From Pseudomonadota bacterium (GTDB taxonomy: Bacteria; Desulfobacterota; Syntrophia; Syntrophales; UBA8958): DNA of 38,085 bases. A model generated the notes under the pieces. The model was not told the origin of the DNA, ran no database searches, and saw only the letters and a list, made by a program, of their open reading frames with translations. Positions within the stretch are counted from its first letter, which is position 1; the number at the start of each line of letters is the position of its first letter. The position numbers and the translations under genes are program-made. Positions 2,101-15,661 of this stretch are shown here, one piece after another. The DNA lies in contig JASGUC010000003.1 of NCBI GenBank assembly GCA_030057915.1, forward strand, positions 1 to 38,085. The letters are read 5' to 3'.

Positions 2101-2170
2101 ATGCCGGCGCGCCGGCATAGGTAAAGTAGTTGATTTTATAGGCACAATCGCCGACGGTCAAAAAGTTTTG
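2101..2170. repeat. 70-bp dispersed palindromic element, copy 1
   Basis: It opens with the 18-bp perfect palindrome ATGCCGGCGCGCCGGCAT and ends with GGTCAAAAAGTTTTG. The copy at 19621-19690 aligns with it without gaps at about 59 of 70 positions. It lies 72 bp before the PAS protein start, so it may sit in its 5' untranslated region. Confidence 0.8.
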
Positions 2171-2242
2171 CTATCAAAAAATCCGCCGTCGGCGGGATGC
2201 CTTCATCCCTCGTTGCGCCCAACCCGAAAGGACGACGGTGAG

Positions 2243-4291
2243 ATGAAAGACGCGGGCAAGACCAAGCAGGAACTCATGGCGGAGCTGGCCTCCCTCCGGA
2301 ATCGGCTTTTGGAGTTGCAGGGGGGCGCCGCCTTGCCGCCGCCCACGCCGCCCACGCCGCCCACGCCGCCCACGCCGCCCACGCCGCCCACGCCGCCCGC
2401 CCTAACCTGGGAAACCTATGACAGCGTCTTCTCGTCCTTTTCTCTCGGCGTTATGGCGATAGATAGAAGCGGCGTTGTCATCTATGTCAATCCCGCCTTT
2501 ACCCGGATTACCGGTTATCGCCTGCCGGAGCTTGGCACGGAGAAACAATGGTTCCAAAAGGCCTTTCCCGAACGGGAAGCCCGCCGCAAGGCCCTGTCCG
2601 CATGGGTCAGGCATCAAGCCGGTGGGACGCGGACCGAGCGGCTGTTTCAGATTGTCTGCAAAAACGGCCGGACCAAGACCGTGAACATCGATCTCTCCCT
2701 TGCCGCCGACGGCGCGGTAATCTCCCTGCTGGGGGAAGCCGGCGCGATCGCCGATGAGGAAAGAATCTCCAACGAAAAGGAGGAGCAGTGGCGGCTCCTT
2801 CTGGATATCATGAACGAGGGGTTCATCAGGCTGAACGACGCGGGCGTCCCTGTCTTTGTAAACCAGCGATTATGCGATATTATGGGCTATCGTAGGGAGG
2901 AGATCGTCGGCCGTCCCCTCGCCTTCTTCCTCGACGAAGACAATCTGAGGATCTTTCAGGAGCAGTTCTCCCGTCGTTCCCGGGGCGAAAAGCAGCCCTA
3001 CGAAATCGTCTGCCAGCGTCGAAACGGCGAACGGCGACACCTGGTTCTGTCTCCCCAGCCCCTCTTTGACCACGGCGGTCGCTTTGCCGGCAGCTTTGCC
3101 ACCTGCATGGACATAACGGAGAGAAAGGCGATCGAGGAGGAACTGCGGCGCTCGCAACGGCGGTACCGGGACCTGGCCCGGGAGTATCGCGCCATCGTGG
3201 AGAATTCCACCGAGGGGATCTATCGCGGCACACCCACCGGTCGTTACATCATGGCCAATCATGCCTTTGCCCGACTCCTCGGCTATGAATCACCGGAGAT
3301 GCTCATGGCCGAAGTGACGGACATCGGCGCTCAGGTTTACGTCGATGCCCAGGACTGGGAAGAGGCCATCCGCAAGGTGATCGCCGCCGGGCACGGCGAG
3401 GTGGAGGCGCGGGTCCGGCGGCGGGATGGAAGCCTGGCCTGGATTGCCAACAGCGTCCGGGTGGTCCGCGGACCGGCGGGGGAGATTCGGTTCTTTGAAG
3501 GTTTGGCCCGGGATATCACGAAACGCAAGGAGGCGGAACGGGCCCTGGAGATTTCGGAGCGCAAATACCACGCCCTGTTCCAATACGCCTCCGTGGGCAT
3601 AATCGTGACCGACGCGGCGGGCGGGATAATAGAGGCCAATCCGGCCTGGCAGCGGATGACGGGCTACGCGGAGGACGAATACCGGAAGCTGTCGCCGGAG
3701 GTTCATTACGCCCATCCGGAGGAGCGGCGGGCCATTCGGGAGGAGTTGGCCGCGACCGGCAGGGTGCGCAATCACGAGGTATTCCTGCGGCACAAGGATC
3801 AACGCCTTATCGTGGCGCTGTTGAATTCCGATCGGTGCGTCATGGAGGGGGAAACGGTCATCCTGTCCCAGACCATCGATATCACGACGCGCAAACAGGA
3901 GGAGGAGACCCTCCGCCAGAGCGAGGAACGATACCGGATGATCCTGAGCAACATCGAGGAGGGCTATAACGAGGTCGATCTTGCCGGTCGGTTCACCTTC
4001 TTCAATGAATCCTTTCTACGGTTGACCGGACGCGCTCATGACGAGCTTTTGGGCGCCCATTTCGGCGTCTGCACGGACAGGGAGAATCAGCGGCGGGTGC
4101 AACGTTCCTACCAAAGAGTCTTCCGGACGGGAAAACCCCTGCGCTGCCTTGCCTGGGACATCTTTCGCAAGGACGGGGAGAGGCGCTCCATAGAGGTTTC
4201 GGTCAGCCTCATCCGGGACACCTCCGGACGTCCGGTGGGATTCCGGAGCCTGGTCCGGGATGTGACGGATCGCCCGCGGCCCCCTTCCTAA
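2243..4291 (+). CDS. PAS-only protein with five tandem PAS domains, no output domain
   Basis: 682 residues from the ATG giving MKDAGKTKQELMAELASLR, a common N-terminal helix of PAS-chain sensor proteins. An in-frame upstream ATG (2168) would start inside the repeat region and is unlikely. After the helix comes a Pro-Thr linker (about residues 33-52) from six 9-bp DNA repeats. Five PAS folds follow at about 56-170, 180-298, 313-432, 440-556 and 563-680, most closed by the PAS/PAC signature D(I/V)T(E/K/D)R. No transmembrane segment is evident, so it is likely cytoplasmic. There is no HisKA, HATPase, GGDEF, EAL, HTH or methyl-accepting domain: the protein stops right after the fifth PAS. It could be a kinase that lost its C-terminus next to the repeat debris downstream, or a scaffold/sensor acting on a separate partner. 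Ligand unknown. Confidence 0.85.
   Translation: MKDAGKTKQELMAELASLRNRLLELQGGAALPPPTPPTPPTPPTPPTPPTPPALTWETYDSVFSSFSLGVMAIDRSGVVIYVNPAFTRITGYRLPELGTEKQWFQKAFPEREARRKALSAWVRHQAGGTRTERLFQIVCKNGRTKTVNIDLSLAADGAVISLLGEAGAIADEERISNEKEEQWRLLLDIMNEGFIRLNDAGVPVFVNQRLCDIMGYRREEIVGRPLAFFLDEDNLRIFQEQFSRRSRGEKQPYEIVCQRRNGERRHLVLSPQPLFDHGGRFAGSFATCMDITERKAIEEELRRSQRRYRDLAREYRAIVENSTEGIYRGTPTGRYIMANHAFARLLGYESPEMLMAEVTDIGAQVYVDAQDWEEAIRKVIAAGHGEVEARVRRRDGSLAWIANSVRVVRGPAGEIRFFEGLARDITKRKEAERALEISERKYHALFQYASVGIIVTDAAGGIIEANPAWQRMTGYAEDEYRKLSPEVHYAHPEERRAIREELAATGRVRNHEVFLRHKDQRLIVALLNSDRCVMEGETVILSQTIDITTRKQEEETLRQSEERYRMILSNIEEGYNEVDLAGRFTFFNESFLRLTGRAHDELLGAHFGVCTDRENQRRVQRSYQRVFRTGKPLRCLAWDIFRKDGERRSIEVSVSLIRDTSGRPVGFRSLVRDVTDRPRPPS
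2342..2395 (+). repeat. 9-bp minisatellite, six perfect copies
   Basis: CCCACGCCG repeats six times in frame inside the PAS gene and encodes a Pro-Thr-Pro linker between the N-terminal helix and the first PAS domain. Copy-number change would alter linker length without a frameshift. Confidence 0.9.
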
Positions 4292-5458: not shown

Positions 5459-6250
5459 TCAGGCCGAAAGGCCGCCGGTTTCGGGGGCCGGCGCCGGACG
5501 TTTCCGGGCGACGATCTCGCCCGCCAGGGCGAGAAAATCCTCGGCCCCGTGGCTCTTCGGGGCATAGCGGAAGATCGTCTGCCCGTAACCGGGGGCCTCG
5601 GCCAGGCTGATGTTCTCCCGGATGATCGTCTTGAAGAGCTTGTCCCCGAAGCGCTCCCCGATGGTTTCCATGATCCCCTTGTTGAGCTTCCGCCGGGCGT
5701 CGTAACGGGTGCCGATGATCCCCGTGATCTCCAGGTCCCGGTTGAGACGCCTTTTCACCGTATCGATGGTTTCGATGAGCTTGCTCATCCCCTTCAGGGC
5801 CAGAAACTCCGTTTGCAGGGGGATGTAGATCTCCCGGGCGGCGGTGAGGGCGTTGAGGGTCAGGATGCCCAGGGATGGCGGGCAATCGATGAGGATATAG
5901 GCGAAGCCGTCGGCCTGGCTCAGGGATTCCCGAAGGATGAACTCCCGGCCCGGCGTCCCGGCCAGTTCCATATCCAGCCCGGCCAGATCCAGGGAGGAAG
6001 GGACGACCGCCAGGCCTTCCACTGCCAGGAGCGTGTCCGTCAATCCATGGGTCCCCTTGAAGAGGTCAAGGACGGTTCGTTGCAGTTCATGGGCCGGGAT
6101 GCCCAGGGAATAGGTAAGGTGGGCCTGGGGGTCCAGATCGATGAGGAGGACCTTCTCTCCCATCCTCTCCAAACCGGCGGCGATATTGAGGGCACAGGTC
6201 GTTTTGCCCACTCCGCCCTTCTGGTTGCATAAGGCTATGATTTCACTCAT
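5459..6250 (-). CDS. ParA/Soj-family ATPase (orphan)
   Basis: 263 residues from the ATG preceded by AAAGGAGGAG; an in-frame upstream ATG at 6280 lacks this site. The deviant Walker A motif KGGVGKTT (residues 11-18), Walker A' DLDPQ (about 38-42) and LIDCPPSLG place it in the ParA/MinD superfamily. These dimerise on ATP and bind DNA or membranes to position cargo. The usual N-terminal DNA-binding helix of plasmid ParA is missing, as in chromosomal Soj. No parB or parS-like array is seen nearby. It lies 88 bp downstream of two zinc-ribbon/SPFH genes on the same strand and may be co-transcribed, so a role in positioning a protein assembly is as likely as DNA segregation. Confidence 0.88.
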   Translation of the reverse strand: MSEIIALCNQKGGVGKTTCALNIAAGLERMGEKVLLIDLDPQAHLTYSLGIPAHELQRTVLDLFKGTHGLTDTLLAVEGLAVVPSSLDLAGLDMELAGTPGREFILRESLSQADGFAYILIDCPPSLGILTLNALTAAREIYIPLQTEFLALKGMSKLIETIDTVKRRLNRDLEITGIIGTRYDARRKLNKGIMETIGERFGDKLFKTIIRENISLAEAPGYGQTIFRYAPKSHGAEDFLALAGEIVARKRPAPAPETGGLSA

Positions 6251-6338
6251 TGCTCCTCCTTTCCATAAAAATGCCTGCAAGGCCTTGGATATTCACATCT
6301 TCCGTTATCCCCGCCGCAGGCGTGGGGTTAATCCCGGG

Positions 6339-7556
6339 TTACATCGAGGCGCCGAAGCTCAGGGCCTTCCTGTCGATGACGACCTTCATGGTTTGGTGAA
6401 TCAATTCCCGCGGGGAGGCGGAGAACGGCTGATAGACAAGGGTCGTTTCCCTGGCGTGCGGCTTCAGCCGGGGCAGGGCGGCGAAAAAGACCCGTTTGTC
6501 CGTCACGATGTTAGCCAGGGTTAACGGGACGCTCTCCAGGGCCTCCGGGGCGGTCAGCGTGACGGGGTAGATGTTTTGGCGCGGGAGTTTCTCCCCGTAG
6601 TCCGCCTCCGGCTGGAAAACGGTGGCCTGGCGCGTCCAGCGCATGAAGAGGGCGGGATTGATCTTGAAGGCCGGGACCCAGAGATAGGCGGGTCGCCGCT
6701 CCATCTCCCCAGTGATCGCCCGGGGGAGGTTGGTCAGCCGAGCCAGATCGGCCAAGGATTCCAGGGCGATGCCCTCGCAGTGGATTCGCAGGCGCCAGAA
6801 GGGCAGGTAGTGGGTATCGTCGCCCAGGCCGTTCATGACGAGGAAGGGGGTCCGCTCCAGCGCTGCACCCGAGGGGGTCCAGACGGACTGGCAGTTGCCG
6901 CAGGTGAGAGCCAGGGTGTCCCGGGCACCCTGGAGGTCCCACCCGCAGGAGGGGCAGAGGGTGGGCAGGAACCTGACGCGGGTCCGGGCGGTGGGGGCGA
7001 GGGCGGGGCATCGCTCCCTCTCCGCCTCCGTCCAGGGAAGGGTCTGGGCCGGACGAAAGGCGTCGTAAAGGGTGTTGCCCCTTGCCGTCATGGGGGAATA
7101 GATGAGGCTCACGGCCTCGCCGATAAAGATGTCCCTCCCCGCGCCTCCCGACGGCGTGATCGTCCGCGGCAGGGCCTCCTCCGCCGTCAGCCCCGGTTGG
7201 AGAAAGGTCCCCGGGGTCTCCTGGGAGAGGAATCTCAACTTCATGGCCTGGGGACGGACCCCCAGGGAGACGGGGAGTCCCGACAGGGACAGGGCCCGGC
7301 GATTGAGGTCGATATAGGCGTCGCCGATCTCCAGGGGTTCGATCCGGTAGGCAAGGCCCCGGAGTCGCCAATAGGGAACATACACGGTCTCCGCCGCCGT
7401 CGGCGCGGGGATGTAATAGTGGCAAGGGTCGGGCGAGCAAATGAACAGACGGGTCCGGCAATAGGCACAGGAGAGGATCCGATCCGTTTCCTCCAGGACG
7501 ACCGGCGCTCCGCATTGCGGGCACTGCTCCTGAATCCGCCAGTTAGATCCGTTCAC
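6339..7556 (-). CDS. Duplicated zinc-ribbon protein, unknown function
   Basis: 405 residues if begun at the GTG that overlaps the end of the SPFH gene by 14 bp. Longer starts inside that gene seem unlikely. It has two copies of one plan: a four-Cys ribbon (C12, C15, C30, C33) followed by YVPYWRLRG, and a second ribbon (C201, C204, C219, C222) followed by YLPFWRLRI. The repeated ribbon + 'Y-x-P-aromatic-W-R-L-R' unit points to internal duplication. No membrane segment is clear. The stop/start overlap implies translational coupling with the SPFH protein, whose own tail is zinc ribbons. I know no function; a structural partner of the SPFH assembly is an inference. Confidence 0.7.
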   Translation of the reverse strand: MNGSNWRIQEQCPQCGAPVVLEETDRILSCAYCRTRLFICSPDPCHYYIPAPTAAETVYVPYWRLRGLAYRIEPLEIGDAYIDLNRRALSLSGLPVSLGVRPQAMKLRFLSQETPGTFLQPGLTAEEALPRTITPSGGAGRDIFIGEAVSLIYSPMTARGNTLYDAFRPAQTLPWTEAERERCPALAPTARTRVRFLPTLCPSCGWDLQGARDTLALTCGNCQSVWTPSGAALERTPFLVMNGLGDDTHYLPFWRLRIHCEGIALESLADLARLTNLPRAITGEMERRPAYLWVPAFKINPALFMRWTRQATVFQPEADYGEKLPRQNIYPVTLTAPEALESVPLTLANIVTDKRVFFAALPRLKPHARETTLVYQPFSASPRELIHQTMKVVIDRKALSFGASM

Positions 7557-8691
7557 CGCACCGGTTGCAGAACAACGAGTTGGGAAGATTCTCCGCGCCG
7601 CAATGGGGACATCCCTTCGGCTCGGGTTTCTGTTCCGCCGGGGCGCCGCATTGGGGGCAGAATCGGGCGTTGGCCGGCAGATTCTTTCCACAGGCGCTGC
7701 ACTGCCGGATCACGAGGAGCTGATGGCCGCAATAGGGGCAGAACCTCGCCTCCCGGGGCACGGACTGCTGGCAATCCGGACATTTGGCGTCCGCGTCGCC
7801 GCCGGTTCCGGGGGCGACGCCGCCGCCGCCCGCCGCCCCCGGGGAGGAACGCCAGGCCTCGGCGAACATGGCGGGCATCATGAAGCCCATGCCCATTCCC
7901 AGGGCGGAACCCGTCTCCCCCTGGTTCAGGGAGGCGTTTTCCAGGGCCATGGCGGCCTTCATCCTCAGCAGCTTGTTGAGGTCGTCGAAGACCCCCAGCT
8001 TGCTCTTGTCGTCGATGGCCTTCTGCACCTCCGGCGGCGGGGTTATGGAGTTGATGTAGAGCTGGGTCAACCCCAGCCCGAACTGGCTGAAGTCCTTCGT
8101 CAGCGCCTCTTGCAGCCCCACGGCCATTTCGTCGTATTGGGCGGGGAGGTTCAAGATCGTGTCGATTCTTTCCCCCAGGAAATCGTTCAGACGGGAGACG
8201 ATGACGCGGTTCAGGTATTCGGCGATCTCCTCCGTCGTATAGGCCCCCTGGGTGCCCACCAGGCTGTTTATGAGCAAGACCGGCTGGAGGATGCGGATGT
8301 TGAACACCCCGAAGGCCCTAAGGCGGATCAGCCCCAGTTCGCTGTCCCGGAAGGCCACCGGGTCCCTGGTCCCCCAGGTGAGATTGGGGAAGACCTTCAT
8401 GTTGGCAAAATAGACCTCCGCCCGCAGCGGGCTGGTCATGGCCCAGGGGGTGCTGAGGACCTTGGTGAGAATGGGGATGTTGGCCGTCCTCAGGGTGTGC
8501 CGTCCCGGTCCGAAGGCATCGTAGGCCTTGCCCTGATAAAAGAATACGGCGGCCTGGCTCTCCCGGACCGTGAGCTGTGCCCCCCATTTGATCTCGCCCG
8601 AGCCCGTTTCGGGAATTCTCTGGATCAACTGCTTTCCCGATTCGTCAAACCATTCGATGACTTCCAGAAATATGACATTGTTCATTCCCAT
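7543..8691 (-). CDS. SPFH-domain protein with three C-terminal zinc ribbons (YdjI/COG4260 type)
   Basis: 382 residues. Residues about 30-240 form an SPFH (stomatin/prohibitin/flotillin) domain of the 'virion core protein-like' group. Landmarks include VRESQAAVFFYQGK, GPGRHTLRTANIPIL, and PPPEVQKAIDDKSKLG at the end of the coiled region. A Gly/Ala/Met-rich linker (SALGMGMGFMMPAMF) follows, then three CxxC-CxxC ribbons (CPDC/CPYC, CSAC/CPQC, CPHC/CNRC). In Bacillus subtilis a relative, YdjI, is linked to membrane stress with a PspA-like protein; no PspA is present here. First gene of a minus-strand group with the zinc-ribbon and ParA-like genes. The divergent neighbour is the HD/NrdD-like pair. 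Confidence 0.88.
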   Translation of the reverse strand: MGMNNVIFLEVIEWFDESGKQLIQRIPETGSGEIKWGAQLTVRESQAAVFFYQGKAYDAFGPGRHTLRTANIPILTKVLSTPWAMTSPLRAEVYFANMKVFPNLTWGTRDPVAFRDSELGLIRLRAFGVFNIRILQPVLLINSLVGTQGAYTTEEIAEYLNRVIVSRLNDFLGERIDTILNLPAQYDEMAVGLQEALTKDFSQFGLGLTQLYINSITPPPEVQKAIDDKSKLGVFDDLNKLLRMKAAMALENASLNQGETGSALGMGMGFMMPAMFAEAWRSSPGAAGGGGVAPGTGGDADAKCPDCQQSVPREARFCPYCGHQLLVIRQCSACGKNLPANARFCPQCGAPAEQKPEPKGCPHCGAENLPNSLFCNRCGERI

Positions 8692-8871: not shown

Positions 8872-8900
8872 TTGATTTGAAATATGGAAAGGAATATTAT
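8872..8900 (+). promoter_or_regulatory. Predicted sigma-70 promoter for the HD-nrdD-like pair
   Basis: TTGATT (8872-8877), a 17-bp spacer and TATTAT (8895-8900). The start of transcription would fall near 8907, only about 6 nt before the chosen ATG, giving a nearly leaderless mRNA. Confidence 0.5.
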
Positions 8901-8912
8901 AGGCTTCAAGCC

Positions 8913-10331
8913 ATGAAGACAACGGAACATTCCTTCCCCCGGATCTATCGGGGGATGGCCCTCATCGCCGATCCCATCCACCAGTACGCCTGCTTTACCG
9001 TTCCATTGGGCGGCGGCGACGGGGAGAAGACGGAAAAGGACCTCCTCGACTCCCCGTGGATGCAGCGCCTGCGCCGGATCTACCAGTTGCAGAGCGCCCG
9101 CTGGGTTTACCCGGCGGCGGAGCATACCCGGTTTCAGCATTCCCTGGGGACCATGCATGTGGCCGGGGAATTCGCCCGCTCCATCTATCCCAGCCTCCGG
9201 GAAATCTGCCCGGATATCCCCTCGGAGCGATACATCGAGGAACTGGCCCGCGTTGCCGGTCTCCTCCACGACGTAGGCCACGGCCCATACGGGCATTTCT
9301 TCGACGACCATTTCCTGGATCGCTACGGCATCACCCATGAGGATATAGGCGGGCGGATCATCGTCGAGAAACTGGGAAAGATCATCCGCCAGATGCGCCG
9401 CAGCCCCGCCGGACCCTTCGCGGAGGGGGAAACGCTGGATCCCCGGAATGTGGCCTATCTCATCAAGATGCCCGCGGGGGGGGGCCAGGGGAAGCCCCGG
9501 TGGCTGACCTTCCTCCGCCAGCTCTTCTCCGGGATCTATACGGTGGACAACCTCGATTACGTCCAGCGCGACGCCTTCATGACCGGCGTATCCCTGGACA
9601 TGGTGGATATCGCCCGGATCAGATATTACTCCTTCTTCACCGAGGCCGGCCTGACCCTCCATGAGGCGGGGATCTCCGCCCTGCGCCGTTTCCTCAACGC
9701 CCGCCTCAACCTCTATGCCAACGTCTATTTCCATCGCACCACCCGGGCCCTGGACCTCCACCTCCAGGAGATCTTCCGGGAGACCATGGAGCGCCTCTGC
9801 CCCGGCGATCCCCGGGAGGACCTGGATGCGTATGGTCGCCTCGACGAATGGCGCCTCTTCGAAACCGTCCGCCGCTGGACGGAGGGGGAAGACCCCCAGC
9901 GCAGGCGTCTCGGTCGGGAGTGGCAGCGCCTGTATGGCCGGCAGGTGAAATGGAAGATGTCCTATTCCACGGAGATTTCGGTGGAAAGCGTCCAGAAGGG
10001 GACGAGCTTCGCCTCGGCGGGGGATTACGAGGAGCGGATACGCCGCCGTTTGCCGAGGCCCCTGCGGAAAATCGACCTCCGGGTGGACCTGGCCACTCAG
10101 GATCCCCGGCCCATCAACCCCATGGCCCAGACGGACCGGCAGATCAACATCTTCAACCCGGCCTTGGGCGAGACCTCTCAAGAGCCCCTGCGGGACATCT
10201 ACCGGTTCATCCCCGCCCGGATCGTTCATTTCCGGGTCTTTACCAAGAATCATGACCACGACGCCGCGGTTGCCGCCGCGGCGGAGCAGGCCTTGGACAA
10301 TCCCAGCGGGGCGTCGCGGACGAATATATGA
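8913..10331 (+). CDS. HD-domain phosphohydrolase, dNTPase (SAMHD1/YwfO-like)
   Basis: 472 residues. The HD metal site is complete: H71 in EHTRFQHSLG, H119-D120 in LLHDVGHGPYGH, and Asp 212/215 in DNLDYVQRD. The order H...HD...D with 'DSPWMQRLRRIYQL' before it matches the dNTP triphosphohydrolase branch of HD proteins (SAMHD1, B. subtilis YwfO), which cut dNTPs to deoxynucleoside and triphosphate. Start chosen at the ATG 6 bp after the predicted transcription start; a TTG at 8877 overlaps the -35 box. The stop overlaps the start of the NrdD-like gene as ATGA, so both are made from one mRNA and coupled. Pairing a dNTP-destroying enzyme with an RNR-like protein suggests nucleotide-pool control; substrate untested. 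Confidence 0.85.
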   Translation: MKTTEHSFPRIYRGMALIADPIHQYACFTVPLGGGDGEKTEKDLLDSPWMQRLRRIYQLQSARWVYPAAEHTRFQHSLGTMHVAGEFARSIYPSLREICPDIPSERYIEELARVAGLLHDVGHGPYGHFFDDHFLDRYGITHEDIGGRIIVEKLGKIIRQMRRSPAGPFAEGETLDPRNVAYLIKMPAGGGQGKPRWLTFLRQLFSGIYTVDNLDYVQRDAFMTGVSLDMVDIARIRYYSFFTEAGLTLHEAGISALRRFLNARLNLYANVYFHRTTRALDLHLQEIFRETMERLCPGDPREDLDAYGRLDEWRLFETVRRWTEGEDPQRRRLGREWQRLYGRQVKWKMSYSTEISVESVQKGTSFASAGDYEERIRRRLPRPLRKIDLRVDLATQDPRPINPMAQTDRQINIFNPALGETSQEPLRDIYRFIPARIVHFRVFTKNHDHDAAVAAAAEQALDNPSGASRTNI

Positions 10332-12409
10332 ACGGTCCGGGCAAGATGAAGACGTCGCCGCCGGAGACGACCGATATGACCCTGTTCGTCCGGTCCAGGG
10401 GGGAGGATGTGGACCGCTGGAACCGCCGACGCATCGTCGATGCCCTGATGCGGGAGACGGGGATCGACGCGGCGACGGCGGAGGCGTTGAGCCTCGACGT
10501 GGAGAAGGGCCTCTTTGCCTCCGGGATCTCGGCCTTGACCACCTCCCTGATCCGGGAACTCGTCGATGTGAAACTGGCGGAGCGGGGGTTGGAGAAGGCC
10601 CGGCGGATGCACGCCCGTCTCGGCTTTCCCCTCTACGACGTCGATCAGCTCATCCTCCATCGCAACCGGGAGGACGCCAACCTCCCCCACGGACCGGAGG
10701 GGACGAACCTGGTTCTCGCCCAGGGAATCAAACGGGAATACGCCCTCAACAGCATCTTTTCCCAGGAGGTCGGCGATGCCCACATCATGGGAGATTTTCA
10801 CATCCACGGCCTGGGTTCTGTGGACCGCCCCTTCTCGGGCTGCCAGAATCTGGAATATCTCAAGAGGTTCGGCCTGAATCTGCCCCGTTCCCTCAACGTC
10901 GCCAAGCCCGCCAAGCATGCCGAGGTGCTGCTGGCCCACATGGTGCGATTCGGGGCGGTCCTTCAGGGCTATTTCGCCGGCGTCATCTGTTGGAATTTCG
11001 TCAATCTCTCCCTGGCCCCTTACCTGACCGGCATGTCCGACCGGGAGGTGCGACAGTTCGCCCAGATGCTCGTTTACGAATTCTCCCAACTGACGGCGGC
11101 CCGGGGGGGGCAGGCCATGTTCACCGATATCCATCTCTTCTGGAACGTTCCCGAGGCCCTGCGGGACTTGCCCATGATCGGTCCGGGGGGCGTCCCCACG
11201 GGGAGGACCTGGGGGGATTACGAAGGCGAGGCCCAGCGGCTGGCCCGGGCCCTGGGCGAGGTGTTCCAGAAGGGGGACGGCGCGGGCAAGCCCTTTATCT
11301 TCCCCCGTCCGGTGGTCCACATAACCCCCCGTTTTTTTGCCTCCCCCGGGCATGAGGAGTTTCTCCGCCACATCTGCGCGGTCGCCGCCGACAAGGGCAA
11401 TCCCTGCTTCGTCCTGGAGCGAACGGAGGGTGAATACGGCATGGGGGGCCTGGGGATGCCGACGGCGCCCGAAGACGCCGCCGCCCCCTGGCGGCAGCGC
11501 GGGGCGGCCATTCAGAGCGTCAGCATCAACCTCCCGCGCCTTGGTTACCGTGCCGCCGGAGACGAGAAGGAACTCTTCCCCCGTCTGGAGGCCCTCATGG
11601 ATCTCGCCGCTCAGGCCCATGCCCAGAAGTGGACCTTTCTGGAAAGACTGCTCTCGCATGGAGATCAGGGGCCCCTGTCCCTGCTGGCCATGAGCCTCGA
11701 CGGCGCCCCCTATCTGCGGCCCGAGCGTTCCGTGTATCTCCTGGGCATGGTGGGCCTCAACGAGCTTACGCGGGTCATGACGGGGGAATCCCTCGACGAA
11801 ACGCCGGCGGCGGAGGAATTCGGACTCCGGGTGATCGCCTTCATGGCCCATCGGGCCAAGGTCCTGAGCGACCGTTACGGCCTCGACCTGGTCCTGGACC
11901 AGTCCCATGCGGAGACGACGGCGCACCGCTTTGCCCGTCTGGACCTCCGTTATTTTTCCCCGCCCGCGGGACGCCACGTCCGGGGCGACCTGGTGGCGGG
12001 GTCGCTCTACTACACGAATTCCACCCATCTGCCCGTTTCCTCCCCCCTGAAGCCCGCGGCGCGCATCCTGCGGGAGGGAAAATTCCACCCCTGGATCGGG
12101 GGCGGCGCCGCCGTCCAGATCTGGCTGGGGGAAAAGCCGCCGTCGCCGTCGGACCTGGCGGCGCTCCTCGCCTGGGCCTATCGGGAGACCTCCTGCCGAC
12201 AGATCATCTTCTCCCCGGAGTTTACCGCCTGCCGGGACTGCGGCGGCGCCTTCCGGGGGCTCGGGGAGCGCTGCGCGCGCTGCGGGTCCGCCCGAGTGGA
12301 CGGGATTGCCAAGATCACCCAGTATTACAGCCGGGTCGCGGACTGGAACAAGGGAAAGCTCGCGGAACTGAAGGACCGTTGCCGCCACGAAAGGTTCGAC
12401 TTCCCCTGA
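10328..12409 (+). CDS. Class III ribonucleotide reductase (NrdD) homologue with altered radical sites
   Basis: 693 residues. An ATP-cone-like regulatory segment (about 17-105, FVRSRGEDVDRWNRRRIVDA) is followed by an NrdD barrel with DAHIMGDFHIHGL and FSGCQN (C172, one conserved catalytic Cys). SINLPRLGY and the C-terminal zinc site CxxC/CxxC (C635, C638, C649, C652) are also present. In NrdD the thiyl-radical Cys lies in 'MGC' and the glycyl radical in 'TGY' near the C-terminus. Here the matching places read MGG (about 372-374) and TQY (Q665), while the following WNKGKLAELKDR is well kept. No nrdG activase gene is adjacent. I infer either a divergent clade or a non-catalytic, nucleotide-sensing relative. 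Translationally coupled (ATGA) to the HD dNTPase-like gene. The ATG at 10346 is an alternative start. Confidence 0.82.
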   Translation: MNGPGKMKTSPPETTDMTLFVRSRGEDVDRWNRRRIVDALMRETGIDAATAEALSLDVEKGLFASGISALTTSLIRELVDVKLAERGLEKARRMHARLGFPLYDVDQLILHRNREDANLPHGPEGTNLVLAQGIKREYALNSIFSQEVGDAHIMGDFHIHGLGSVDRPFSGCQNLEYLKRFGLNLPRSLNVAKPAKHAEVLLAHMVRFGAVLQGYFAGVICWNFVNLSLAPYLTGMSDREVRQFAQMLVYEFSQLTAARGGQAMFTDIHLFWNVPEALRDLPMIGPGGVPTGRTWGDYEGEAQRLARALGEVFQKGDGAGKPFIFPRPVVHITPRFFASPGHEEFLRHICAVAADKGNPCFVLERTEGEYGMGGLGMPTAPEDAAAPWRQRGAAIQSVSINLPRLGYRAAGDEKELFPRLEALMDLAAQAHAQKWTFLERLLSHGDQGPLSLLAMSLDGAPYLRPERSVYLLGMVGLNELTRVMTGESLDETPAAEEFGLRVIAFMAHRAKVLSDRYGLDLVLDQSHAETTAHRFARLDLRYFSPPAGRHVRGDLVAGSLYYTNSTHLPVSSPLKPAARILREGKFHPWIGGGAAVQIWLGEKPPSPSDLAALLAWAYRETSCRQIIFSPEFTACRDCGGAFRGLGERCARCGSARVDGIAKITQYYSRVADWNKGKLAELKDRCRHERFDFP

Positions 12410-12467: not shown

Positions 12468-12494
12468 AGCGCCGCTTTGCGAGGGAAGGGCGGC

Positions 12495-13079
12495 ATGGAA
12501 GATCTCATCGTCAAAATCTTCAAGGACAGCAGTCGGTTAAAGGAAAGCTTCGTCAACGACAACCTCTCCGGCATCGTCCGGGTGGTGGAGATGATGACCG
12601 CGGCGTTGAAGGCGGGCAACAAGATCATGATCTTCGGCAACGGAGGCAGCGCCGCAGACGCCCAGCATCTGGCCGCGGAGTTCGTGAACCGTTTCCTCAT
12701 CGAACGGCCGCCCCTGCCGGCCATCTCCCTGAGCGCCGACACCTCCATTATCACGAGCATCGGCAACGATTATGATTTCTCGGAGATCTTCAGCAAGCAG
12801 ATCCGGGCCCTGGGCCAGCCCGGCGATGTCGCCTGGGGAATCAGCACCAGCGGCAGGTCGCGGAACGTTTACAAGGCCCTGGAACAGGCAAGGAAAATGG
12901 GCTTGACGACCTTCGCCCTCACGGGAAGGGACGGCGGCGACATCGCGGGGATCGCCGACTACAGCCTCAATGTGGCTTCGGAGAGCACGCCGCGGATTCA
13001 GGAGGTCCATATCACCCTGGGGCATGTCCTCTGCCAGATGGTGGATCTCAAGCTTTTCCAGCGGCCGGACATGAAATGA
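12495..13079 (+). CDS. gmhA: D-sedoheptulose 7-phosphate isomerase
   Basis: 194 residues, normal for GmhA. It has a single SIS (sugar isomerase) domain with the family signature GNGGSAADAQHLAAEF (about residues 47-62), the phosphate-binding STSGRSRNV, and a C-terminal helix EVHITLGHVLCQMVD. The enzyme converts sedoheptulose 7-phosphate to D-glycero-D-manno-heptose 7-phosphate, the first step to LPS core heptose (or S-layer heptose). Start: ATG after GGGAAGGGCGGC; a TTG 18 bp upstream is not needed. It lies behind its own strong promoter and 27 bp upstream of grpE, so a heptose gene appears to lead a chaperone operon. The other heptose genes (gmhB, hldE, hldD) are not in the window. Confidence 0.93.
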   Translation: MEDLIVKIFKDSSRLKESFVNDNLSGIVRVVEMMTAALKAGNKIMIFGNGGSAADAQHLAAEFVNRFLIERPPLPAISLSADTSIITSIGNDYDFSEIFSKQIRALGQPGDVAWGISTSGRSRNVYKALEQARKMGLTTFALTGRDGGDIAGIADYSLNVASESTPRIQEVHITLGHVLCQMVDLKLFQRPDMK

Positions 13080-13106: not shown

Positions 13107-13700
13107 ATGGTGAAAAAGACAACAAGGGATATGGGCGGTCTGCGGGACGCCCCGGAAGGGCCCCTGGCGGGGACCGGCTTAGAGACGCCGGAGACGACGC
13201 CGGAGGATCCGCGGGTGCGGTCGGTGGATCGGGAACTGGAGGAAGCAAGGCGGGAGTGCGCGGAAAACTACGACAAGTATCTGCGCGCCGTGGCGGATCT
13301 GGACAACTATCGGAAACGGGCGGCGAAGGAGAAGGCCGAGGCCATCAAATACGGCAACGAAAGCCTGATCCGGGAGCTGCTTCCCCTGGCGGACAGCCTG
13401 GATCGGGCCTTGCGGCATGCCGACGAATCCGACGATTTCGAATCCTTCAAAAAGGGATTGGGGATGCTCAAGGATCAGCTCCTCTGCTGTCTGGGCAAGC
13501 ACGGCGTGGAACCCATCGATTGCGTCTGCCGGCCGTTCGATCCGAACTACCACGAGGCCTTCATGCAGGTGACGAGCCGGGAGCACGAGGACAATCAGGT
13601 CGTGGAAGAACTGGAAAAGGGGTATCTGTTGAACGGCAGATTGTTGCGGCCCGCCCGGGTGACCGTCTGTAAGCGTCCCGACGACGACGGGACGTGTTGA
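13107..13700 (+). CDS. grpE: GrpE nucleotide exchange factor
   Basis: 197 residues. A long N-terminal coiled coil (RSVDRELEEARRECAENYDK to ADLDNYRKRAAKEK) with the typical 'LR..AD.(D/E)N(Y/F)RKR' passage is followed by the beta-wing domain. The latter includes GVEPIDCVCRPFDPNYHEA and VVEELEKGYLLNGRLLRPA, ending VTVCK as in most GrpE proteins. GrpE dimers release ADP from DnaK. It lies 27 bp after gmhA and 35 bp before dnaK. The first 35 residues are variable and Pro/Glu-rich, as usual. No hrcA precedes it and no dnaJ follows in the window, so the classical hrcA-grpE-dnaK-dnaJ order is broken. Confidence 0.95.
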   Translation: MVKKTTRDMGGLRDAPEGPLAGTGLETPETTPEDPRVRSVDRELEEARRECAENYDKYLRAVADLDNYRKRAAKEKAEAIKYGNESLIRELLPLADSLDRALRHADESDDFESFKKGLGMLKDQLLCCLGKHGVEPIDCVCRPFDPNYHEAFMQVTSREHEDNQVVEELEKGYLLNGRLLRPARVTVCKRPDDDGTC

Positions 13701-13735: not shown

Positions 13736-15661
13736 ATGGGAAAAATTATCGGTATTGACTTGGGAACCACCAATTCCTGCGTGGCGGTCATGGAAGGCGG
13801 CGATCCGGTGGTCATTGCAAATCAGGAGGGGAATCGGACGACGCCCTCGGTGGTCGCATTCACGGAAAGCGGCGAAAGGCTGGTGGGACAGGTAGCCAGG
13901 CGTCAGGCCATTACCAACTCGGAGAATACCGTATATGCCGTCAAGAGGCTCATCGGCAGAAAGTACAACACCAAGGAGGTCCAGTATGACAAGGGCATCA
14001 GCTCCTTCCGGATCACCGAGGCGGCCAACGGCGACGCCCAGTTGACCGTGCGGGACCGGAATTACAGCCCGGCGGAGATCTCTTCCATGGTCCTGGCGAA
14101 GATGAAGCAGACGGCGGAGGACTACCTGGGGGAGAAGATCACCGACGCGGTGATCACCGTCCCGGCCTATTTCAACGATTCCCAGCGTCAGGCGACCAAG
14201 GACGCGGGCAGGATCGCCGGGCTCAACGTCCGGCGGATCATCAACGAGCCCACGGCGGCGGCCCTGGCCTACGGCCTGGATAAGAAGAAGGAAGGCAAGA
14301 TCGCCGTCTTCGATTTGGGGGGCGGGACCTTCGACATCTCGATCCTCGAGATCGGCGACGGGGTATTCGAGGTCAAGTCCACCAACGGCGACACCCATCT
14401 GGGAGGCGAGGATTTCGACCAGCGGCTGATCGACTTTTTGGCCACGGAGTTCAAGAAGGATCAGGGCATCGACATCCGGAGCGATCGGATGGCCCTCCAG
14501 CGCCTCAAGGAGGCGGCGGAGAAGGCGAAGATCGAACTCTCCACGGCCATGGAGACGGACATCAATCTCCCCTTCATCACCGCCGACGCCTCCGGCCCCA
14601 AGCACATGAACATCAAACTGACCCGGGCGCGACTGGAGGCGCTGGTGGAGGATCTCATCGCCAAGGTGGAGGCCCCCTGCCGGACGGCCATGCGGGACGC
14701 CAATCTCTCCCCCCAGGACATCAACGAGGTGATCCTCGTGGGCGGGATGACGCGAGTCCCCCGGGTGCAGCAGAAGGTGAAGGAAATCTTTGGCAAGGAG
14801 CCGAGCAAGGGGGTGAACCCCGACGAGGTGGTGTCCGTCGGCGCGGCCATTCAGGGCGGCGTGCTGGCCGGGGATGTTAAGGACGTCCTCCTCCTCGACG
14901 TGACGCCCCTGTCGCTGGGGATCGAGACCCTGGGCGGGGTGATGACGAAGCTCATCGAGAAGAACACCACCATCCCCACCCGGAAGAGCCAGATCTTTTC
15001 CACGGCGGCGGACAATCAGCCGGCGGTGAGCATCCACGTCCTGCAGGGCGAACGTCCCATGGCGGCGGACAATCGCACCCTGGGCCGTTTCGAGCTTGTG
15101 GGAATCCCCCCGGCGCCCCGGGGGCTGCCCCAGATCGAGGTGACCTTCGACATCGATGCCAACGGCATCGTCCATGTGTCGGCCAAGGACCTGGGCACCG
15201 GGAAGGAGCAGAGCATTAAGATAACCGCCTCCAGCGGTCTTACAGAGGAAGAGATCCAGAAGCTCGTCAAGGATGCGGAGGCCCATGCCGACGATGACAA
15301 GCGGAAACGCGACCTGGTCGAGGCCCGGAATCATGCCGACTCCTTTGTGTACAGCGTGGAAAAGAACATAAAGGAATTCGGCGACAAGATCGATGCCGCG
15401 GAAAAGGCAAAGATAGAGGATGCCATGACCAAGGTCCGGAAGGCCATCGAGGGCGACGATCTGGAGGCCATCAAACGGGCCCAGGACGAGCTGACCACCG
15501 CCTCCCATAAACTGGCCGAGGCCATGTACGCCAAGACGGCGCAGCAGCAGGGAGGCCCGGGCGCCGGCGCCGGTGCCGCCGGGGCGGGCGCCGGGACCCA
15601 GGCGGGCGGCGGCAGGAAGGATGACGACGTGGTGGATGCGGATTTCGAGGAGGTCAAGTAA
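13736..15661 (+). CDS. dnaK: Chaperone DnaK (Hsp70)
   Basis: 641 residues, full length. N-terminal [17 protein letters not shown], the ATPase signatures [16 protein letters not shown] and [14 protein letters not shown], and the inter-domain linker [12 protein letters not shown] are present. The substrate-binding domain and helical lid end in a Gly/Ala-rich tail and [10 protein letters not shown], the standard C-terminus in proteobacteria. It folds and refolds proteins with GrpE and a DnaJ encoded elsewhere. A strong AAGGAGG site lies 10 bp before the ATG. Transcription probably comes from the gmhA promoter; no heat-shock operator is visible in the 35-bp gap. Nothing abnormal in the sequence. 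Confidence 0.98.

Follow-up and report, generated by a model that had tools for sequence, protein, structure and literature searches.

The window analysed here is a stretch of 38,085 nucleotides from the Syntrophales assembly GCA_030057915.1 (contig JASGUC010000003.1), and the gene in question codes for a homologue of the class III ribonucleotide reductase (RNR) NrdD, referred to below as NrdD*, in which the residues of the radical chemistry are replaced. An upstream gene for a predicted HD-domain deoxynucleoside triphosphate (dNTP) triphosphohydrolase (dNTPase), called HD below, overlaps its start, and the genes gmhA-grpE-dnaK(-surE) follow it. The features of this locus are listed by position in the window; the terms disarmed and intermediate denote sequence classes defined further on, and tm marks residues of Thermotoga maritima NrdD.

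8877..10331, + strand: SAMHD1/EF1143-like HD-domain dNTPase (predicted), 484 aa (Pfam HD, 1.1e-9; PDB matches)
10328..10331, + strand: ATGA, shared by the stop of HD and the start of NrdD*, 4 nt (sequence)
10328..12409, + strand: NrdD*, disarmed class III RNR homologue, 693 aa (Pfam NRDD over the full length; orthologues; ratio of nonsynonymous to synonymous substitution rates, dN/dS)
10385..10594, + strand: weak ATP-cone-like N-terminal segment, residues 20-89 (PF03477, 16.5 bits, cut-off 25.8)
10799..10810, + strand: HIHG (H158-G161), the HxHD motif for triphosphate binding with its two His but not its Asp (alignment)
10835..10837, + strand: S170, position of the Cys of the reductive half-reaction (tm C125, E. 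coli C175), lost (alignment)
10946..10948, + strand: R207, at the position of tm Q161, an effector-base contact (register from HMMER alignments)
11087..11089, + strand: Q254, invariant, at the position of the effector-base contact tm Q218 (register from alignment)
11399..11515, + strand: finger-loop region, residues 358-396 with MGG at 372-374, eroded, without Cys after C360 (column conservation)
12230..12283, + strand: zinc ribbon C635, C638, C649 and C652, retained (invariant in 153/153 family members)
12320..12322, + strand: Q665 (CAG) in place of the glycyl-radical Gly (tm G621) (alignment, T-Q-Y at 664-666)
12477..13079, + strand: gmhA-like SIS isomerase (Pfam SIS_2; syntenic in disarmed and intermediate loci)
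13107..13700, + strand: grpE, conserved neighbour (Pfam GrpE; syntenic)
13736..15661, + strand: dnaK, conserved neighbour (TIGR02350; syntenic)

NrdD* matches the Pfam NRDD model (PF13597) over the whole domain with 375 bits (7e-112), which agrees with the full-length NrdD-like protein described in an earlier note on this DNA, and scores 322.6 bits against TIGR02487, slightly under the cut-off of 326.35. Its best 36 Foldseek matches are all NrdDs (probability 1.00, template modelling score about 0.5, query model with a predicted local distance difference test score, pLDDT, of 59). The AlphaFold models, built from 15 and 13 sequences, reach pLDDT values of 59 and 61.5, which suffice for the fold and not for loop positions or pockets. 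The ATP-cone-like segment claimed by the same note does give a match, but one that stays below the cut-off; a catalytically intact relative matches PF03477 similarly weakly (17.8 bits). The closest known system is the class III RNR NrdD itself (PF13597, TIGR02487; structures 4COI/4COJ from T. maritima, 8P23 from P. copri and 1HK8 from phage T4). NrdD* shares with it homology from end to end, the zinc Cys4 site, the HxH phosphate motif, the loop-2 Gln and the WNxGK segment that follows the Gly, whereas the glycyl Gly, the finger-loop Cys, the reductive Cys, a linked NrdG and the Asp of HxHD are missing.

Most of the genomes compared are metagenome-assembled genomes (MAGs) of varying completeness. 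Orthologues with 57-87% identity occur in MAGs labelled Syntrophus, Syntrophaceae or Syntrophobacterales. The window's order consists of anaerobes, most of them uncultured, and a profile built from orthologues recovers the family from 132 of its 155 genomes. Across the phylum, the family was found in 133 of 395 genomes belonging to many families (E up to 1e-100). The 153 distinct members that were aligned fall into three classes: (i) 65 intact sequences, all from outside the order, with C170, a finger-loop CCR and the Gly; (ii) 22 intermediate sequences from within the order, with the Gly kept and the finger loop eroded; and (iii) 66 disarmed sequences from within the order, in which the glycyl site is occupied by Q, K, R, L, N or P, and position 170 by S, A, G or N.

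Positions in NrdD* were assigned by alignment to these relatives and to T. maritima NrdD. The radical site holds Gly in 65/65 intact and 22/22 intermediate members and in 0/66 disarmed members, where the residues are Gln (41), Lys (16), Arg (6), Leu, Asn and Pro (one each). Q665 of the window aligns with this Gly, so that the TQY reported in place of TGY by the earlier note stands, as does its suggestion of a divergent clade. The substitution is not a chance event, since 41 of the 66 disarmed sequences, drawn from numerous separate assemblies, have Gln there and a change from Gly to Gln requires at least two base changes. The MGG seen in place of MGC is equally real, residues 361-400 of NrdD* being devoid of Cys. 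Among the disarmed members the CCR motif survives in just three sequences of the Lys type (L111, L186 and L190), and columns invariant in the intact class are kept in the disarmed class at 37% in the finger loop versus a mean of 80% elsewhere (Mann-Whitney p 1e-6). The Cys of the reductive half-reaction, present at position 170 in 65/65 intact members, is found in 0/66 disarmed members. The earlier claim that both radical positions are replaced was thus correct and understated, as three residues are gone rather than two.

Several candidate substitutes were considered and dismissed. C172, which had been described as conserved, is neither homologous to the reductive Cys, which the alignment puts at position 170, nor conserved, with Cys in 64% of disarmed members and Gly in Gly-bearing relatives outside the order. 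The earlier note had named another Cys or Gly at the radical positions as the alignment result that would tell against replacement; the alignment yielded none. G676 (of WNKGK) and G659 are also present in intact relatives, and C360 lies upstream of the loop tip and is not universal. C360 (11405-11407) is of some interest in itself, as a Cys newly common in the disarmed class (57/66) at a position occupied by Tyr in all intact members and canonical NrdDs.

The adjacent activase gene is missing as well. A gene for an NrdG2-type activase lies just downstream of NrdD in 22 of the 23 intact loci with enough sequence (one confirmed with TIGR02495, 186 bits), versus 0/29 disarmed loci (Fisher p ~1e-13), and likewise in 0/20 of the intermediate (Gly-bearing, in-order) loci. 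None of the 30 intact genomes tested yielded an NrdD other than the intact one. Within the order, a canonical NrdD is present in 131 of 155 genomes, including the window's genome (G000, 2.85 Mb), where it is encoded on contig C12, is 27% identical to NrdD* and is followed by an NrdG2-type activase (219.7 bits). The earlier note was therefore right that no nrdG lies beside the window gene; the activase gene stands instead beside the canonical one. A gene from the class I/II RNR large-subunit family, which we treat as class II, is present in G000 too. The survey of canonical nrdD and nrdG in each genome, which the note had proposed, further revealed at least 15 genomes, several of them at least 95% complete, that have NrdD* and lack canonical NrdD. 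A PF02867-family RNR (class II-type) is present in 14 of these 15, the exception being G052. In 13 of the 15 no NrdG2 reaches the family cut-off, although some are incomplete and the short-type NrdG (TIGR02491) was not searched separately. NrdD* is thus kept in genomes where nothing recognisable could activate it.

In spite of these losses the gene is under strong constraint, with dN/dS of 0.09-0.18 in close NrdD* pairs, comparable to that of the neighbouring HD gene. The canonical NrdD outgroup is too distant to root the tree (root branch 4.4, longest-branch members at the base), and only the unrooted split was used; on it, the difference between sequences with and without Gly corresponds to one change, with a support of 100 in the Shimodaira-Hasegawa-like approximate likelihood ratio test (SH-aLRT) on that branch. 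The Gly-bearing intermediates suggest an order of disarming, in which the activase was lost early, then the finger-loop Cys, and then the reductive Cys together with the Gly. One subclade (L106-L108, L110, L116, L183 and L184) has the Gly (mostly as AGY), C170 and often a Cys pair, without adjacent NrdG2 or HD, and could be a still-active form that uses canonical NrdG in trans. The genome G078 holds two NrdD* copies (contigs C177 and C211; L034 and L099), one of the Gln type and one of the Lys type, suggesting horizontal transfer between families.

Many positions that contact nucleotides or zinc have been retained, with structural roles of the T. maritima residues (including H114 and D115) taken from PMC4493059. 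The C-terminal zinc CxxC/CxxC pointed out earlier holds throughout the family. In the phosphate motif H158 and H160 are invariant, and the Asp at position 161 is present in 65/65 intact but only 2/66 disarmed members. Besides the invariant Q254, Q262, which aligns with the contact tm Q224, is invariant in the disarmed class (tm Q218 and Q224 being effector and substrate contacts), as are A528 and E529 of the phosphate-binding helix, whereas R259 and F265 are mostly kept. Position 207 is Lys in all intact members and Arg in all in-order members. Judged by these residues, NrdD* probably still binds nucleotides.

The HD gene, absent from the earlier note, is the most informative feature of the locus. 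By sequence its product matches the PDB entries 2hek (Aquifex, 1.8e-28), 2o6i (1.8e-22) and SAMHD1 (~1e-17), and its top Foldseek matches are SAMHD1 and E. faecalis EF1143 (2O6I/3IRH), a dGTP-activated dNTPase (PMC8177086). It is of the same HD type as these enzymes with intact metal ligands: H88, H131, D132 and D224, corresponding to H66, H110, D111 and D183 of EF1143, are kept together with the HE pair H154/E155 in at least 97% of 74 orthologues. Of the 132 genomes that have NrdD*, 103 carry the HD gene immediately upstream of it in the same orientation, and the ATGA overlap in the window suggests translational coupling of the two. Among the 155 genomes of the order, 118 have both genes, 14 only NrdD*, 9 only HD and 14 neither (Fisher p 5e-7). 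No HD gene adjoins intact NrdD in the upstream stretches read; an HD homologue occurs in 6 of 30 intact genomes, in none of them near NrdD. A fusion of NrdD* and HD was rejected, as the long open frames present in some genomes overlap it in a different reading frame. A defence system was rejected as well: NrdD* has no match among curated defence models (PADLOC), where HD has just a weak dGTPase match (25.8 bits).

From its sequence, NrdD* has very probably lost canonical class III chemistry and activity. The loss of catalytic residues and activase, the purifying selection and the adjacency to HD are observed, and their best explanation, which we consider about evenly balanced between right and wrong, is that NrdD* is a pseudo-RNR maintained to serve the HD dNTPase as a nucleotide-responsive partner or regulator; a functional link between the two proteins, drawn from adjacency and co-occurrence, carries the same even weight. 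NrdD* probably descends from an ordinary NrdD with an NrdG2 partner, as is found today in other orders. In the window's order dNTPs would come from a second NrdD/NrdG2 pair or from a class II RNR. The old gene would have lost its activase and joined the locus with the SAMHD1-like dNTPase and gmhA-grpE-dnaK, with erosion of the finger loop, the reductive Cys and the Gly. The protein would then bind nucleotides at the former effector and substrate pockets and relay this signal to the co-encoded HD dNTPase by direct contact, turning an enzyme of dNTP synthesis into a sensor for dNTP breakdown, and strong purifying selection would act on this non-catalytic role. The complete proposal, an RNR turned into an allosteric sensor that controls the dNTPase of its own operon, so that a radical-free synthesis fold governs dNTP destruction across the order, is tentative and falls somewhat short of even confidence. 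The earlier suggestion of a non-catalytic dNTP/NTP-binding regulator is accordingly upheld in part: the alignments support the loss of catalysis and the contact positions are kept, while binding and regulation are only inferred.

Several points weigh against this reading. The link to HD is not obligatory, given the genomes with one gene and not the other, and in the one-contig complete genome G073 only HD is missing from the locus, whose NrdD* is of the disarmed class. Adjacency may also be inherited without interaction. D161, a helper in substrate triphosphate binding, is gone; the match to the ATP-cone is weak; indels make the finger loop hard to align, and the three Lys-type sequences retain CCR there; and the confidence of both AlphaFold models is low. 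Sensing of nucleotides on behalf of the dNTPase nevertheless ranks as the most likely role given that nucleotide contacts are what has been retained, that the HD family acts on the same metabolites, and that the Clover system discussed below provides a precedent.

The main competitor is a pseudo-RNR whose role is separate from HD, such as a nucleotide- or zinc-dependent scaffold for gmhA-grpE-dnaK or a stand-alone dNTP sensor in replication or transcription. Either gene, NrdD* or HD, can be missing by itself with gmhA-grpE-dnaK still next to the other one, as in G146 and G068, where NrdD* is gone and HD remains, and the Arg-type family (G073-G076) has disarmed NrdD* without any HD gene; because of such exceptions we grant this alternative roughly a third of the weight, even though no other neighbour is as close or as frequent as HD, which overlaps NrdD* in the window and shares with it the obvious theme of dNTP metabolism. 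The locus of G068 has, between HD and gmhA (L229, 8243-10808), divergent genes for a UbiE-type methyltransferase-like protein and three small heat-shock protein-like products.

The wide occurrence of canonical NrdD in the order and the ability of NrdDs to form dimers and tetramers (PDB titles 8p27, 8p28) would suit an inactive regulatory subunit of the canonical enzyme in mixed oligomers, but the identity of the two proteins is just 27%, and we reject this improbable scheme on the persistence of NrdD* in genomes without canonical NrdD. A radical enzyme with altered chemistry, possibly operating through C360, is more doubtful still. Stable radicals do form in glycyl-radical-enzyme homologues with Ala, Ser or Thr in place of Gly (Fu et al. 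2024, PMC11528403), and C360 is newly common in the disarmed class; these aminoacyl radical enzymes, however, keep the catalytic Cys and partner activases, whereas the NrdD* site drifts among six residues with no conserved finger-loop Cys and NrdG2 undetected in 13 genomes, and C360 lies at least 12 residues before the MGG segment. The "another chemistry" offered by the earlier note is disfavoured on these same grounds, to which the missing reductive Cys adds. Although the loss of catalytic residues would also be expected of a decaying pseudogene or a sequencing or assembly error, the chance of this is negligible, the frame being open in more than 100 genomes from separate assemblies, with dN/dS of about 0.1 and a single origin across many families.

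Other known systems offer partial parallels to NrdD* and its locus. The aminoacyl radical enzymes resemble NrdD* as glycyl-radical-enzyme homologues without the catalytic Gly, but they are PFL-type proteins, and the same 2024 survey recorded only Gly for class III RNRs (IPR012833); NrdD* forms a large conserved class III RNR clade without the radical Gly. Inactive RNR large subunits of betaherpesviruses (UL45, M45 and the HHV-6B RNR; PMC5469499, PMC11772975) likewise keep the fold for another job after loss of activity, but these are class I R1 proteins of animal viruses acting in host signalling, whereas NrdD* is a class III homologue in anaerobic bacteria beside a dNTPase gene. In the Clover system (CloA/CloB), a bacterial dNTPase is controlled by an adjacent regulator gene (PMC12265719); the Clover partner is a nucleotidyltransferase that makes p3diT, while NrdD* would be an RNR-derived partner. 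We found no description of a disarmed class III RNR or of an RNR-derived dNTPase partner in the open-access literature. The clade makes it possible to test RNR allosteric sites in isolation from catalysis, and a connection of dNTP synthesis and breakdown through a retired synthase. Several disarmed members exceed the TIGR02487 cut-off (e.g., L015 with 364.8 and L018 with 360.9), so pipelines that use this model would call them working reductases, and the anaerobic metabolism of DNA precursors may be wrongly annotated for such genomes.

Elsewhere in the window, an open frame at 2168-4291 on the + strand codes for a protein of five or more PAS domains in a row, in which no output domain was recognised. 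Upstream of HD, three genes lie on the opposite strand.

5459-6280, - strand: ParA-like ATPase
6339-7691, - strand: conserved protein of 450 aa, matching a zinc ribbon only weakly
7543-8691, - strand: SPFH/Band-7 protein with zinc ribbons

This block is syntenic in the loci of several relatives.

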